Below the pieces are notes generated by a model that saw only the letters and a list, made by a program, of their open reading frames with translations, was not told the origin of the DNA and made no database searches. Shown here piece after piece: positions 52,601-59,950 of a stretch of DNA of 64,000 bases (positions are counted from its first letter, which is position 1; each line of letters opens with the position of its first letter). A program made the translations under genes and the position numbers. The DNA comes from Acanthamoeba sp. SK_2022b (taxonomy: Eukaryota > Discosea > Longamoebia > Acanthamoebidae), in NCBI GenBank assembly GCA_027943245.1, contig JANDJZ010000094.1, forward strand, positions 1 through 64,000, given 5' to 3'.

Positions 52601-54509
52601 AGTGAGCGTTAGCGAGCCATACACAGGCAGAGCGGGACGTGGAGGCGTGGGCGTGGGCGTGGGCTCACCTTGGTGTTGAATATGCGGATCTTTTTGTCGT
52701 TGCAGGCGGCCCATATGTGGCCGCCGACCTGGGTCATGGCGAGCACGAAGGCGTCGATGCTGATCTCCTTGTGCACGTCGAGCTTGCTCGCGTTCCACAC
52801 CTTGAGCTTGGCATCGCCGCCCGTCCACACGTACGCCGTGTTCCCTTGGGCTGCGATCGTGAAACCAACCGCACATCGCACAAGAGACTTAGTCAAAGCC
52901 GAAGCCAACGCCACAGGTCGGGAGCCGTACTGATGGGGCAGATGGAGTAGACTGCACCCGGGGCCTCCTTGACCAGCACGCCCCGTGAGTCTCTGATCTG
53001 GAGCGACCTCTCGGCTCCTGTCCACACGTTCAGGCCCACCGCTTTGACGGAAAAGATTCGGCCCTGGCCAGTGTCGAGCTGCCGCAGGAAGCGCAGGTCC
53101 TCGCCCTCCCACACGCGTATGCTGCCCGCCGAGTCGCCCGACCACACGTGCCACTTGTCGCCGCCCCACACGCGCTCCACCGCGCCAATCGACTTCTGAT
53201 GACCGGTCATCTACACAACAACACGGGCAACCGTGAGCATCGTGTGCGTGCGTGTGCGTGCGTAAGAGGCGAGCAAGGCACCTTGCGTAGAAAACGACCG
53301 TATTTGCGGGTGGCCGGCTTGGCGCTGCAGTGGTCCTCCTCCTCGGCTTCGAAGAGCAGCCCGTAGTTGACGATCATGAGCGCCACGAGATCGTTCATCC
53401 GCACTTGCCAGTCGAGCGCACCGGCCGCAGGGTGCCCGGTCGGCGCCCACAGCATATGCGGCGCAAACAGGGAGGCGAGCTGTTGCGCGTCCATTCGCGT
53501 TTTCTGTGCGTAGCGTGGCTTAGCGAGCGCACAGCATAGCATAGCACAGTACAGTCGACGAGGAGGAGGCAGTCAAGTACCTCAAAGTTGAGGTGCACCA
53601 TGTGGAGCAGACGTGTGAGCTCGGCCAGGACGGCCCGGTTGGCCGGCGGCAGGGCCGCTACCAGACGCGCCACCTCCTGCACACGCTCCACCCCGTCCCG
53701 GATCTCCGCGGCCTTGGTCCAACGCTCGAACTGGGCCTCCGTCAGCAGCGGGTCGGGCAGCCTGCCATGCATCGGACATGGATGGTCAGTTGGAATTCCC
53801 TCTTACTACTACTCCTCCTCTTTCTCTCTCTCTTTCGCTGCGTGGGGCAAAGGGAAAGCGGGCGAGGTCAATTGACGGGCTGGGGCACTACCGTCGCAGG
53901 AAGGTCTTGAGGAGGGACGAGACGGTGTTGACGTCCTCGGCCTTGGTGAAGTCGATCGCCGCGCCGCTGTTGATCTCCTCCTGAAAGCGCTGGACCTCGG
54001 GGCCGGAGCCCGCTGCCTTAAAAATACCAACAAGAGGCAGTCCTGCACGGTCCCTCGCGCGGTTGTCAGACATGTGTGCAAATAGTGCGAGTAGCAGTTG
54101 GGTGAGCGCGCGCAGCCGTACCGTAGGCGGTCAGGTAGGTGAAGGCCTTCTTGGCGAAGAGGGGCACCTGCAGCCACGGCCGCGCCTCGCGGTCTCGCGC
54201 CAGCAGCTCCTCCAGCGCCACCCCGAAAACGCCTTCGCTTGCTTCGCCGCCTCCACCGCCAGCAGCGATGCTCGCGGTGGCTGTGCTACTAGTCTGTCGC
54301 TGGCGTCCCAGCGAGGGGCCATCGCCCGAAGGCCTCTGCACATTACCCCCCCCCCAAGCGCATCGTTAATAGAGTGATTTTCATTCGATTCAAAGGTGGT
54401 TCACGTTGTATAGCCCCCAGGGCCGGGGGGGGGGGGCACGATAGCAATAGATGAAGCAATTAGAAACAAATTCGCGCTATTTTGGTAAAAGTACCGAAGG
54501 AGGGTCCAT
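49398..54509 (-). CDS. RhoGAP-like, WD40, TKL-type kinase and SH2 multidomain protein
   Basis: A single phase-consistent reading runs from ATG 54509 to the stop at 49398, roughly 1,250-1,300 residues. The first exon is MDPPS (54495-54509); the next starts at 54335 after an intron. Part 1 is RhoGAP-like: FGVALEELLAR, GLPLVGIFKAAGSG, VSSLLKTFLRRLPDPLL and MDAQQLASLFAPHM. Part 2 is a WD40 propeller (HVWSGDSAGSIRVWEGEDL, AYVWTGGDAKLKVW, HIWAACNDKKIRIFN, YVYTSSDDRAVSAWE, HVWSASWDK, SASYDKTLCLW). Part 3 is a kinase: GTGSFGTVF, VAVKKL, HLDLKAANLLV, DFGLSV, TPLWMAPEV. Part 4, after an Shk-like linker, is SH2 (FHGEISSQEAE, GTFLLRFSS). The kinase-SH2 half matches Dictyostelium Shk kinases. The join at 51744/51608 needs cDNA proof; otherwise two genes lie 130 bp apart. 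Confidence 0.72.
51050..51113. repeat. (CA)n dinucleotide microsatellite
   Basis: About 32 CA units in a kinase-gene intron between the exon ending DDKT and the next starting DDFRKEV. Confidence 0.95.
51359..51442. repeat. (CACG)n and (CA)n compound microsatellite
   Basis: A CACGCACG stretch followed by CA repeats in the intron before the exon encoding GLGAADGRAG. Confidence 0.92.
52047..52111. repeat. (CA)n dinucleotide microsatellite
   Basis: About 32 CA units in an intron within the WD40 part of the fusion gene. Confidence 0.95.
52515..52586. repeat. (TG)n dinucleotide microsatellite
   Basis: About 36 TG units then GA repeats, in the intron between two WD40 exons. Confidence 0.95.
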
Positions 54510-54963: not shown

Positions 54964-57900
54964 ATGTCAAAAGTGGATCGTAATCAGAAAGCTAAAGAGC
55001 ACCACAACAACAATAAGCCCAGGCTGCCCACCACTACCACAGCCTACGGCGAAAGCGAAAAGGGGAGCAAGCTACAGAACAAGAAGAAGTCAACCAAACC
55101 TGCTGCCTCGCCCAGTGGCGAAAGTGAGAGCGTAGATGAGAACATGCTAGAGGATGGTACAGCGCTGATTATAACCACGGCGTCCAGGTCTTTTGCTGAC
55201 CGCCCCACCCCACACAGAGGGTTCCATTCCCGACTTCGTGACTAACACCAGTGAAGACATTACTCCCCGCATCCCCGACTCGTCATACGACCCCTTACCC
55301 TCCATACCTGACATAGAAGGTACTACCCCCAGCTAGCCAGTAGGAGGAATCCACTCAAAGACATGACTGGCAAGCAGATGACGATCCAGAAGATGATATG
55401 GGCGACCCGCTTGATTCTGCACGAGATCGCGAGAGAGAAGAGAAACGACAAAGAGAGAAGGAGAAGGAGCGAGAGAAGGAGAGCAAGGCTGAGAAGGAGA
55501 GAAGGAACAACAGCAGGAAGAAGACACAGCCCAAGAGCGCTGAGGACAGGGAGCGGCAGAGCGTTAAGTCGCCGCGCGCCAGTGGGGAGGTGAAGACGCC
55601 CAAGTCAGGTCGACGGGATAAGTCCAACGGAGCCGACGAGAAGGAGACGAGAAAGGTGAACGGAGGCGACAAGCGAAAGAAGGGCAGCTTCTTCCAGCGC
55701 AAGCCTGACAATACGTCGCGCAAGCTAAGTGCCAGCCAAACCCAGAGCCTCAGACCTGGCGGAGGAGGCGGAGAAGACACGCTAGATACAGACGACGGCC
55801 GCCGAAATACAATCGCCGGCTACAAGCCTGACGACAAGCGAGGCCGAGACAGCGACGCTGATGTCGGGCGAGGTTTGCAAAGGAGATACGCGCTACAGGA
55901 CATCTTCGTACGTCTCGCCGTCCCTTCTGTGACATGCCTGCACAGGCGACCGACGGTGCGTTGGTGAACCGCCGCAGGATTATCACGTTTTGTCCGTGGA
56001 GGCACTGCTGGCGCGATTCCGCACCAACATCGACAACGGACTCTCAACCATGGACGCCGATAAGAAGATGAACAAGAATGGACCCAACCACCCGACCGTG
56101 AGGTGCCCAGCTGTCGACGTTGATGAGTACGAACGCTATCGGCCTCCCTCTGCCGCTCCTGTCGCTCTCTTGATGACCACACGTCGCCCCAACATAGGCT
56201 TGCGACGAAGAAGGTGGTGGTCAGACGCGACGGTTACCGAAAGGCAATCGAGTCGCGGGAACTGGTCGTCGGGTAAGCCTTCCACAACCTCTCACCCCAT
56301 CCCTAGGTGGCAGGCAACTTACCCCACCATGAAGAGACGTGGTTACCCTCGAGCCAGGCCCTGTGTTTGCCGATATGCGTGTGGTGGGTGTCAATACCAC
56401 GGACATGCTCGTCGACAACTCCGCCATCACCGGCGACCCTGAGCCCTTGCCGCGCCAGGTAGAGCTGTCCCCCCCCCCTCTAGGCGAGCTTGACCAACCA
56501 ATGCCGTTGTAGGTGGACATGACGACAGAGAACTACCTGACGAGCGAGAACCTTTTGTTCTATGGCACCAACATCGTCGATGGCGAGGGAACGGGAGTTG
56601 TTGTCCGTACAGGTACGCTTGCAATTCGTGCAGCAAGGAGTTAAAACTTGGACTTTATTGGTATTTCCTCCGACAGGAGATGGAACGCTTCTGGCACGCA
56701 TGATCAAGGACAACGAGAGCGCCAAGCTGAGGAAAGAGGGCGGGCCCAAGGCCAAGAAGGCCATCATGAAACAGCTCGCCAAGAACGGGCTGGCCTTCAA
56801 AGAGCCCAATGCCGGTACGCCGTATCTCTCACCCAGTGAGATGCATTGGGAAGGAGTTTACTCACCATTAACACTCCAGCGAGCCGCTTGGGACGAGTGA
56901 CCACCCTAGTGGTGGACTCAATGGGAGTGCTCACGGAAAACAAGAGTTCGGTGAGCTTTATCATGATCGACAAAGAGATCCGAGAGGCCACGGCGCCCCT
57001 GCCCGAGGGCGAGCCCACCTTCAACGCGCTTCTGAGGGCGTGCGTGCTCGGATGCAACGCCTACTTCCAGGTATCCGAGGGCGTCAATAAGAACAAGCTC
57101 AACGTCGACCAGCTCGATGTAGAGGAATGGGACAACACCAGGTATCACATGGCACCACGCACCACACAGCTATCATGCAGCGCTGTTGACACTTGATGGG
57201 TCTCTGGCAGCGGCGCGCTTCTGCGGTTTTACGAGAAGAACCCAACCTTGGGCATGAAGCGACGAGAGGACGCCTTCTGCAGCGAGATCGTACGAACCAT
57301 GCTCCTACCAGGCACCGCCTACTTATGCGTGTACATAACACAGATGCGGGCCGCATGGGAGAAAGTGGCCGACGACTTGAATGACTGCCGCGTTAGCATC
57401 CATCGATGGGCGAAAGGCCCGCATGTGGGCGGGGAAGACGAGGTACGTACCTGGTTTCAGGATGTGCCCTTCCACGCCTACGTCTAATGTCTTTCCATTT
57501 GTCGATTCAGACGAAAGCGGGCTTCCTGGTGGTGTTGAGCGGTCCGCTGGAGGTGGTTCTCCAGCACTGTCACACTCACATGATGCTAGGTCAGAGCAAG
57601 AAGTTGGACAACGCCAGCAAGAGGGAGATCCGGGAGAAGGCCATGGTGCTTCAAGGTAGGACCAACCCTAATCTCTCTGTCAGGGTCTCTTACCGACAAC
57701 ATCTGGCGTCCCAGGCTATGGTGAGATCGTGCAGGCGTTCGCACAGTTGCCACTTCCCAGCAGCGATTACCCACATGATTTTGAGTTTGACTTCTACTCG
57801 CCCAACTTCCCCATGGTGCGCCTCCACCCTTGATTCGCTATCGCTTGTTCTCTACTACACCGGCATGCCCGCTCAATGCGGTGGTTCCCCCCCCCCAATA

Positions 57901-58797
57901 TCTTCCCTACAACAGAAGGAGCTGTGCTTCCTCGGTTTAGTGTCGATGGGCTCGCGCTTCTACAAGACCATCCCCTCTGCCATCGAGCGCTGCAAGCTCG
58001 CCAACATTCGAGTCATCATGGTCTCACAGGTACAGCGTCCTCTTGGTCACTGGACCACGATCTCCTGACGCGTCAGGGAATCCTGATCCCGGCACGCCAT
58101 ACAGGACCCTGCACTGGCTGTGACGGTCATGGCACGGAAGATCGGGCTCATCACCAAGGAGACTCCTGAAGATATTGCCAAGAAGGAGGGGGTGATGGTC
58201 GACGAGCTAAGCGAGGAGAAGCTGGGGCAGGCCAAGGCCATTGTTATCGACGGCAGCCAGATGGCGCTCATGATGGAGGAGGGCCTGTCCCACATCATGA
58301 GAACCCACGACGAGGTTGTCATCTCAGGGTATGACTGCCTTACCAACCTCCGCCTTCTTTTAACACTCATTCCACGTGCGCTCGGTTTTCAAGAGTGGAC
58401 GCGAGCCAGAAGCTGAAGATCGTAAGAGCCGCCCAGATGATTCAACAGGCCGAGGTAGGCTCCTTTATGCGTATGAAGTGTCACCCCCCCCCCCATCGCG
58501 ACTCAACCCGCCGAGCGCTTCCGTGCGTGCAGGTGGTGGTGGCCACTGGCTCGCAACTGGCTGACTGCGCGGGGCTTTCGGTGGCCGATGTCGGCATTGC
58601 CGCGCCGGTACTCCCACCCCTATTTTTTGAGGGGGGTCGCTTGTTCTCACTCACACGCGCATGTCGAATAGGGAAGCGTGGAGGGAGTGCAACAAGCTGC
58701 TGATGCAGTCATGACGGGCGGGGCGTTGGATTCGATCCTCGACGCGGTCGAGTTCGTGAGGAGGAAGAGCGAGGGCGGAGGCTGTATTCTACAGTGA
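54964..58797 (+). CDS. Membrane-helix-free P-type-ATPase-like pseudoenzyme with C-terminal CaaX box
   Basis: About eighteen exons, ATG 54964, stop 58795-58797. A charged, Lys/Glu-rich N-terminus (to about 55910) precedes a body that aligns by motif order with the alpha subunit of Na/K-type ATPases (LLARFRTNIDNGLS, RRDGYRKAIESRELVVG, NSAITGDPEP, FYGTNIVDGEGTG, SFIMIDK, DPALAVTVMARKIG). Every catalytic motif differs: TGES is TGDP, DKTGTLT is DSMGVLT, the KGAPE lysine is SGPLE, and GDGVND reads GSQLAD. The M1-M2 helices are absent at one exon junction, M3-M4 is replaced by a hydrophilic Lys-rich stretch, and M5-M10 are missing; the frame ends RRKSEGGGCILQ, a CaaX box for farnesylation. The P-loop aspartate (56915-56917) remains. 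The join near 55320-55345 is unresolved. It may be a scaffold or a nucleotide-binding regulator. Confidence 0.8.
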
Positions 58798-59140: not shown

Positions 59141-59950
59141 ATGCGTTCTTTCTTCGTTTGCGTCGTCCTCGCCCTCGCGATTGCCTGTGCTGCTGCCCAG
59201 CAGACCAAGCCCAAGCTCTCTGAGACTTTCGAGTCCAAGGGCTTCGTCTCCATCAAGCACAACGGCACTCTCTACTTCGGCGAGGGTACTCCTCTTCCCT
59301 CAGAAGCTCCATCTTCACTTTTTTCCTTCGCTCTTGCATACTCCCTTTCCTACCTCCCCCCCCTCAAAAAGCTCATAGCGCTCTTTTTTCAACCACACTT
59401 TAGCCTGGTACCACGTCTCCCAGCCCGACGGTAAGGCCGTTGAGGCCTATGCTTTCGGTGGCGCTGAGCACCTCAACGTGTATGAGCTCCAGAGATTCGA
59501 CAAGGTAACTTGCAATTTTGTTTCAAGAAACCTTCAAATGCGAGCGCAATTTATCCCTCATTTTTATTTAATTCGAAACACAAACTCATCGTGGCGTTGT
59601 TCTGGGTGCGGTAGGGCAAGGCCTTCCAGGTCATCCACGATGAGAAGAAGCCCATCTGCCACACCAAGTCCCTCACCGGCAAGATGCCCCAGCTCTGGGA
59701 TTGGGTTGAGAAGGCTGACTACGTCCGCAACTTCACCACCGACGGCACCAAGTTCGACCTCTGGGCCTACAAGACCGCCGGCATCACCCTCGAGGTCGCC
59801 GTCCCCGTCGGCCACCCCGACATCCTTGCTTACTTCGGCCGTCGTTCCGCCGGTGAGGAGTTCTCCTACTTCCTCGAGGAGTGGAAGACTGAGAAGCCCC
59901 ACAGCACCTGGTTCGATATCCCCAGGGAGTGCCACTTCGGCCCCAAGTAA
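59141..59950 (+). CDS. Small secreted protein of unknown function
   Basis: Three exons (59141-59285, 59404-59504, 59615-59950) give 193 residues. The N-terminus MRSFFVCVVLALAIACAAA is a signal peptide, probably cut near AAQ. The mature part has no membrane span and contains FESKGFVSIKHNGTLYFGEG, WYHVSQPDG, FDLWAYKTAGITLEVAVPVG and a C-terminal HSTWFDIPRECHFGPK. Two conserved-looking cysteines (PICH and RECH) may pair. The arrangement is loosely like ependymin-related lysosomal/secreted proteins, but this is weak and unverified. Codon use is that of a well-expressed gene. One N-glycosylation site (NGT) lies early. Confidence 0.75.

Follow-up and report, generated by a model that had tools for sequence, protein, structure and literature searches.

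In a 64,000-nucleotide stretch of Acanthamoeba sp. SK_2022b (contig JANDJZ010000094.1, positions 1 to 64,000; hereafter the window), the gene at 54964..58797 of the plus strand encoded a protein that belongs, by homology and phylogenetic place, to the P2C group of P-type ATPases (type IIC, the Na,K- and H,K-ATPase alpha subunits). The protein had the cytosolic headpiece of such a pump (A, N and P domains), altered catalytic motifs and a CaaX box at its very end, and it had no membrane helices. The likeness is beyond chance, both by the best match in the PDB (H,K/Na,K-ATPase alpha, E = 5.8e-66, with the core of a 916-residue model of the protein as query) and by three relatives with the same deletions, motif losses and CaaX end. 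That these four proteins form a helix-free, CaaX-tailed, degenerate P2C family was considered highly probable. A conserved family of pseudo-P-type ATPases in which the headpiece acts as a prenyl-tethered scaffold was, on balance, the favoured explanation of the whole, and in this pseudoenzyme family the membrane domain has probably given way to a lipid anchor.

Domain architecture and relatives

Residues 1-275 of the window protein were charged and of low complexity, with a Lys/Glu/Arg run at about residues 111-150, and residues 276-898 aligned to the alpha subunits of Na,K- and H,K-ATPase over their cytosolic regions. The Pfam N-terminal segment (PF00690) matched at residues 277-314 and the A domain (PF00122) at residues 326-446 (8.2e-19), the latter match stopping at profile position 110 of 181. 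A short stretch stood in place of M1-M2 and a Lys-rich linker in place of M3-M4; M5-M10 were absent, and the protein stopped after the P domain with the C-terminus RRKSEGGGCILQ. No membrane segment was found in the window protein, in which the top 19-residue Kyte-Doolittle mean was 1.19 and the number of hydrophobic segments was 0. A first-pass annotation of the window had described A, N and P domains in the order of a Na/K-type ATPase, and this was borne out by the PDB match, the type IIC model and the tree. The lack of membrane helices that it reported agreed with hydropathy and with the alignments, in which M1-M2, M3-M4 and the helices after the P domain were absent; the loss of M1-M2 at a splice junction, the Lys-rich stretch for M3-M4 and the end after the P domain were all found.

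Relatives came from three protein searches. The first (query residues 276-916 of the 916-residue model; 7996 candidates scored) gave 593 proteins at E ≤ 0.001, and the closest among the best 120 of the 593 was P0001, a protein of 1166 residues from a metagenome contig (37% over 98%). The second (query an alignment of two cores) gave 127 among 7998 candidates, and the closest among the best 120 of the 127 was P0121 of Balamuthia mandrillaris (1075 residues; 42% over 100%). The third (residues 376-640 of the 898-residue model) gave 3 of 1746, namely P0001, P0121 and P0236, the last a 773-residue EukProt transcript protein with a TRINITY name. Other members of the family may be missed, because P0121 was outside the best 120 of 593 in the first search though it is a nearer relative than P0001. 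No paralogue or allele was seen in the same assembly, where the matches beyond the window locus were pumps at 31-37%. Two short peptide patterns, which distant relatives can escape, gave 61 stretches on viral contigs and 66 on prokaryotic genome contigs, with 0 relatives among either.

Membrane helices were absent in 4/4 members, and the lone hydrophobic segment among them (P0236, from residue 149) was the strand leading to the P-domain Asp. A long charged N-terminal arm was present in 3/4 members (427 residues in P0121 and 518 in P0001, similar in make-up to the 275 residues of the window protein). The four shared a helix-free P2C headpiece, ITG[DS] or LTGS, D-x-x-G-[VF]-[IL]-T, the loss of the first GDG Asp and the CaaX end, a list that was read off the same four members and is a description, not an independent test. 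Homologues in other amoebae, which had been proposed as something to look for, were found with P0121. The NCBI name of P0121, 'Potassium-transporting ATPase alpha chain 2', is not supported by its anatomy, and so misleading a name is of consequence wherever pump genes of these amoebae are tallied as drug targets.

Phylogenetic placement and predicted structure

In a tree of 26 rows (the 4 members, 20 pumps from the searches and 2 pump frames of this assembly) the four members were grouped at 100/99 and fell within the P2C and P2C-like clade at 100/100, with the window protein adjoining P0121 at 99/95. The two frames from the assembly itself met the outgroup as long branches, which is a warning on this tree. 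All four members had the NCBIfam IIC model (TIGR01106) as their best model, at scores far below its curated whole-protein cut-off of 946.1 bits (276.8 for the window protein and 203.9-239.2 for the other three; the sponge pump P0122 scored 1649.9).

Structure prediction, also proposed in the first-pass annotation, was run on the relative P0121 and gave the headpiece domains of Na,K-ATPase, with the fold of the P domain predicted with good confidence. The N-terminal part of the model consisted of two long helices (residues 141-190 and 258-370) and disorder. Residues 258-370 were predicted as a single charged helix of 113 residues, which could be a spacer; the Lys/Glu/Arg run of the window protein resembles it.

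Catalytic motifs

The four members were compared with 18 pumps picked from the 233 other proteins among the matches listed. Pump columns invariant in at least 17 of the 18 numbered 90, and 8 of these fell in stretches missing from three or all four of the members; the other 82 were kept in 4/4 members (25), lost in 4/4 (21) or mixed (36). In the window protein, ITGDPEP (residues 381-387; 56426..56446, +) stood for TGES, the Glu of TGE being replaced by D, D, D and S across the four members. DSMGVLT (residues 483-489; 56915..56935, +) stood for DKTGTLT; DSMGV retained only the Asp and Gly of DKTGT, without its Lys or either Thr. LSGPLE (residues 626-631; 57535..57552, +; SGPLE itself beginning at residue 627) stood for [ML]KGAPE, and MVSQD (residues 734-738; 58018..58107, +, spanning an intron) for MVTGD, with Thr replaced by Ser in 4/4. 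TGSQLAD (residues 837-843; 58545..58565, +) stood for TGDGVND, with the first Asp lost and the second kept, and DASQK (residues 814-818; 58398..58412, +) retained the P-domain Lys, as in 4/4 members.

All four members had lost the Glu in TGE; Lys and the two Thr in DKTGT; Gly and the first Asp in GDGxxND; Thr (to Ser) and Gly in TGD; Asp and Arg in DPPR; Phe in FNST; and others. In pumps, according to the Na,K-ATPase literature, the lost residues of TGE, DKTGT and FNST, the first Asp of GDGxxND and the KGAPE Lys have roles in handling Mg, ATP or the phosphoenzyme. The four retained, besides many glycines, the phospho-Asp, the Lys of the P domain and the second GDGxxND Asp. By HAD criteria, Asp 483 (motif I), Lys 818 (motif III) and Asp 843 (motif IV) were kept in the window protein, and the motif I +2 residue and the first motif IV acid were lost. 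The KGAPE Lys was lost in 3/4 members and present in P0236. The two N-domain lysines that bind ATP in pumps were lost in 3/4 members and present only in P0236, and nucleotide binding by the window protein, suggested in the first-pass annotation, is doubtful because of this loss. The same annotation held every signature to be altered; the five altered motifs (TGDP, DSMGVLT, SGPLE, SQD and GSQLAD) are present, but the losses spared the phospho-Asp, the Lys of the P domain and the second TGDGVND Asp in all four members.

The strongest competing reading to a scaffold is that some HAD-type chemistry has survived. The headpiece would then bind a nucleotide or phosphate ester, with the retained Asp acting as nucleophile in HAD fashion, and would act as a membrane-tethered phosphatase, phosphotransferase or nucleotide sensor. 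The retained Asp, Lys and Asp would fit this role, as would the Ser at the TGD Thr site in 4/4 members, the presence in P0236 of KGAPE and of a Lys in the column of the N-domain ATP-site Lys, and the confidently predicted P-domain fold of P0121; the losses in 4/4 members within DKTGT, GDGxxND, TGE and FNST, and that of the KGAPE Lys in 3/4, argue against it. Such an enzyme was judged unlikely, though the least unlikely of the alternatives, and a catalytically dead scaffold was preferred.

C-terminal CaaX box

The last four residues of the members were CILQ, CMVQ, CIIS and CSVQ, that is, a CaaX box in 4/4, with Q, Q, S and Q at X. Glutamine and serine at X of a CaaX box are farnesyl-type. The farnesylation motif noticed at first in the window protein alone is common to the family. 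In the window protein a basic run preceded the box and the stop (RRKSEGGG-CILQ-stop; 58759..58797, +; CaaX box at 58783-58794), near the expected start of M5, and the C-terminus of P0121, KKKSGGGGCMVQ, was at the place matching the end of the window protein. The tails preceding the CaaX box differed in P0001 and P0236, with the box kept.

A Cys at position -4 was found in 0/233 of the other proteins among the matches listed; these were used as pump controls because 232 of the 233 have DKTG[TS], and many of them are close to each other. From composition, a C-terminus with Cys at -4 and one of QSMACT at X was estimated at 0.0034 per protein, a value not multiplied into a test because the four members are related. 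Matches to prenyltransferase families were present in the assembly (PPTA, PF01239, on 3 contigs; Prenyltrans, PF00432, on 2), families that include cyclases and prenyltransferases other than farnesyltransferase. P0236 ended in CQFCSVQ, with an additional Cys upstream of the CaaX Cys; an extra Cys of this kind occurs in doubly lipidated proteins.

If the CaaX box were not prenylated, the family would be real and its members soluble or nuclear adaptors. Prenylation is read here from a motif, which leaves room for this reading; the CaaX box at the very C-terminus in 4/4 members, with X = Q, Q, S and Q even where the preceding tails differ, and the prenyltransferase-family genes of the assembly make it improbable.

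Proposed mechanism

In the proposed course of events, a P2C alpha subunit would have had M1-M2 and M3-M4 excised and M5-M10 cut off past the P domain. The A-N-P headpiece would have been retained with the loss of many residues of the phosphorylation cycle, and a C-terminal CaaX box and, in 3/4 members, a long charged N-terminal arm would have been gained. Farnesylation of the CaaX Cys, together with the basic run beside it, would tether the headpiece to the inner face of a membrane. The A-N-P body, unable to cycle, would serve as a docking or regulatory scaffold, and the charged arm would space or recruit putative partners. The mechanism of a prenyl-tethered scaffold was put forward tentatively, at somewhat less than even confidence. 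Still more speculative was a wider reading, in which a whole pump became a lipid-anchored signalling or scaffold protein, a prenyl group took the place of the transmembrane domain, the ancestral P2C pump of the amoeba lineage may be gone, and a new membrane-surface switch arose that may still shift between E1- and E2-like shapes without turnover. The soluble or farnesyl-anchored pseudo-ATPase of the first-pass annotation stood as to its P2C descent, missing helices, degenerate motifs and a CaaX end conserved in relatives; its lipid part comes from the motif.

Several points weigh against the reading of the four proteins as a scaffold family. P0236 and P0001 had long branches in the tree (2.15 and 1.61), and their letter make-up was flagged as unlike that of the alignment. 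P0236 was without the PF00690 part; P0001 is known from a protein sequence that begins with Val, and its start may be incomplete for this reason. The pTM (predicted template modelling score) of the P0121 model was 0.52, and whole-chain TM-scores by Foldseek were 0.30-0.42, with root-mean-square deviations of 8.9-17.6, among the best 50 matches listed. The agreement of this model with pump structures is partly built in because the input alignment included pumps. The kept phospho-Asp, Lys and Asp (4/4) and the KGAPE of P0236 may allow some chemistry or nucleotide binding. The anchor depends on a prenylation predicted from the motif, and the splice sites of the window gene are predicted from splice signals and relatives.

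Other P-type ATPases in the assembly

Matches to PF00122 were found on 20 contigs besides that of the window. By summed BLAST scores 18/20 were nearer to other types and two (C536 and C488) nearer to P2C; this sorting was not decisive: C311, C312 and C180 were nearly tied, and the margin for C159 was small. Fourteen of the 20 contigs were classified with NCBIfam, several of them as fragments below the model cut-offs, and the IIC model was best in 0. Six were of heavy-metal types (C536, C488, C159, C1126, C303 and C311, a zinc pump); the others were KdpB (C318), magnesium (C322 and C677), PMR1-type (C592), PMCA-type (C493, C1000 and C601) and type IID (C479). C312, C869, C1007, C494, C239 and C180 were typed by BLAST alone, and C153 was outside the classification. 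A whole-genome IIC search gave 13 stretches, 0 above the cut-off; it was weak and can miss a gene because 8/57 candidates were scored, exon by exon, and the window gene was itself unlisted. None of these three approaches turned up an intact P2C pump in the assembly.

The first-pass annotation had proposed that the window protein could compete with or regulate an ion pump, as a headpiece mimic drawing away the partners of an active sodium-type pump. The P2C headpiece sequence and the agreeing predicted fold of P0121 would suit a mimic, but such a competitor is quite unlikely because no intact P2C pump was found, though by an imperfect search.

Single-frame genes on C536 (L004:499-3222), C677 (L051:614-3322), C322 (L050:496-3252), C311 (L005:640-3012) and C318 (L052:698-2767) scored 1172-1759 bits and exceeded the cut-offs of bacterial models (CopA PRK10671, the Mg-ATPases PRK15122 and TIGR01524, PRK11033 and KdpB); the five are probably bacterial contigs within the amoeba assembly. 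Identical P-type ATPase scores on the pairs C311/C312 and C601/C869 point to redundancy or haplotype copies among the contigs; of the window gene a single copy was seen.

Gene structure

The window gene lay on the plus strand of its contig (C1074 in an assembly of 44.9 Mb and 1129 contigs), from an ATG at 54964 to a TGA stop ending at 58797. A profilin gene of the assembly matched the PDB entry 1f2k ('PROFILIN II', from Acanthamoeba castellanii) with E = 1.3e-74, in keeping with an Acanthamoeba source. Spliced, it had 18 exons and 17 introns (54-100 bp, GT-AG in 17/17) and encoded 898 residues, with the frame open throughout. Exons 1-3 (54964-55156, 55218-55319 and 55378-55907) encoded the 275-residue charged low-complexity extension with its Lys/Glu/Arg-rich stretch, and the ATPase core began in exon 4 (55978..56126; residues 276-324; Cation_ATPase_N-like, with the PF00690 match). 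Intron 4 (56127..56197) was the site of the missing M1-M2, and P0001 had the same spacing without M1-M2. Exons 5-8 (56198-56272, 56335-56458, 56513-56612 and 56677-56814) encoded the A domain and the linker that follows it, the Lys-rich hydrophilic part of which (residues 434-462; 56703..56789, +) occupied the M3-M4 position. Exons 9-12 (56880-57141, 57211-57289, 57344-57442 and 57511-57655) encoded the first part of the P domain and the N domain, and exons 13-18 (57715-57815, 57916-58029, 58105-58328, 58394-58454, 58533-58607 and 58672-58797) the end of the N domain, the remaining P domain and the C-terminus. The 54-bp intron at 57290..57343 was placed by alignment with P0001; read through, it leaves the frame open and gives the 916-residue product. 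At 54-100 bp the introns would not have room for two membrane helices.

A pseudogene or gene-model artefact, that is, a decaying pump gene or helices in unrecognised exons, would account for the degenerate motifs in a model drawn from genomic sequence, but it is very improbable given the 17 canonical introns of such short length, the open frame of 898 residues, the three relatives with the same deletions, motif changes and CaaX ends, the origin of P0236 in a transcript assembly by its TRINITY name, and the 1166 residues of P0001 on a 3870-base contig, which leave little room for introns.

Comparison with known systems

P-type ATPases are defined by a headpiece coupled to a membrane domain. The window protein was like Na,K-/H,K-ATPase alpha subunits in A-N-P order, sequence, IIC model, place in the tree and the predicted fold of a relative, and differed from them by the lack of helices, DKTGT, TGE and GDGxxND and by the CaaX end and the long charged N-terminus. 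In the soluble archaeal P-type-like ATPase (MJ0968 type), too, a catalytic body related to the P-type stands free of any membrane domain; unlike the window protein this ATPase is small and active, is not a full A-N-P headpiece and is not known to have a lipid anchor. A basic run and C-terminal CaaX box serve as membrane anchor in Ras-type GTPases, the fold of which is unrelated. A headpiece kept without its membrane domain and many catalytic residues, with a probable anchor near the expected start of M5, suggests that such a headpiece can have a selected function of its own.

In alveolates, guanylate cyclases occur with a fused P4-ATPase domain, and passages of PMC6592433 propose that the ATPase body regulates another domain; these fusions differ from the window protein in their P4 type, transmembrane helices and fused cyclase. 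The loss of catalytic motifs with the fold kept is common to the window family and pseudoenzymes in general; a review of pseudoenzymes (PMC10211241) has 0 uses of 'P-type ATPase'. Passages of PMC9609216 discuss how Na,K-ATPase evolved, Amoebozoa being one of the groups covered, and contain neither 'Acanthamoeba' nor 'truncated'; those of PMC10471605 name an ATPase once, a calcium ATPase. No described helix-free or CaaX-tailed P-type ATPase was found among the open-licence PMC papers listed, in line with the first-pass annotation, which knew of no such family. The P-type fold, pseudoenzymes and CaaX boxes are each known, and their combination appears new. The family adds a P2C-derived member to the pseudoenzymes and offers a natural test of an A-N-P body freed from transport.

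Neighbouring genes

Upstream of the window gene, exons of a RhoGAP domain were found on the minus strand at 53395-54130 (6.6e-11 and 7.9e-9). Downstream, the frames scanned of a small multi-exon gene on the plus strand (59142-59950) gave no Pfam family above the cut-off; the start of its product, MRSFFVCVVLALAIACAAA, resembles a signal peptide.

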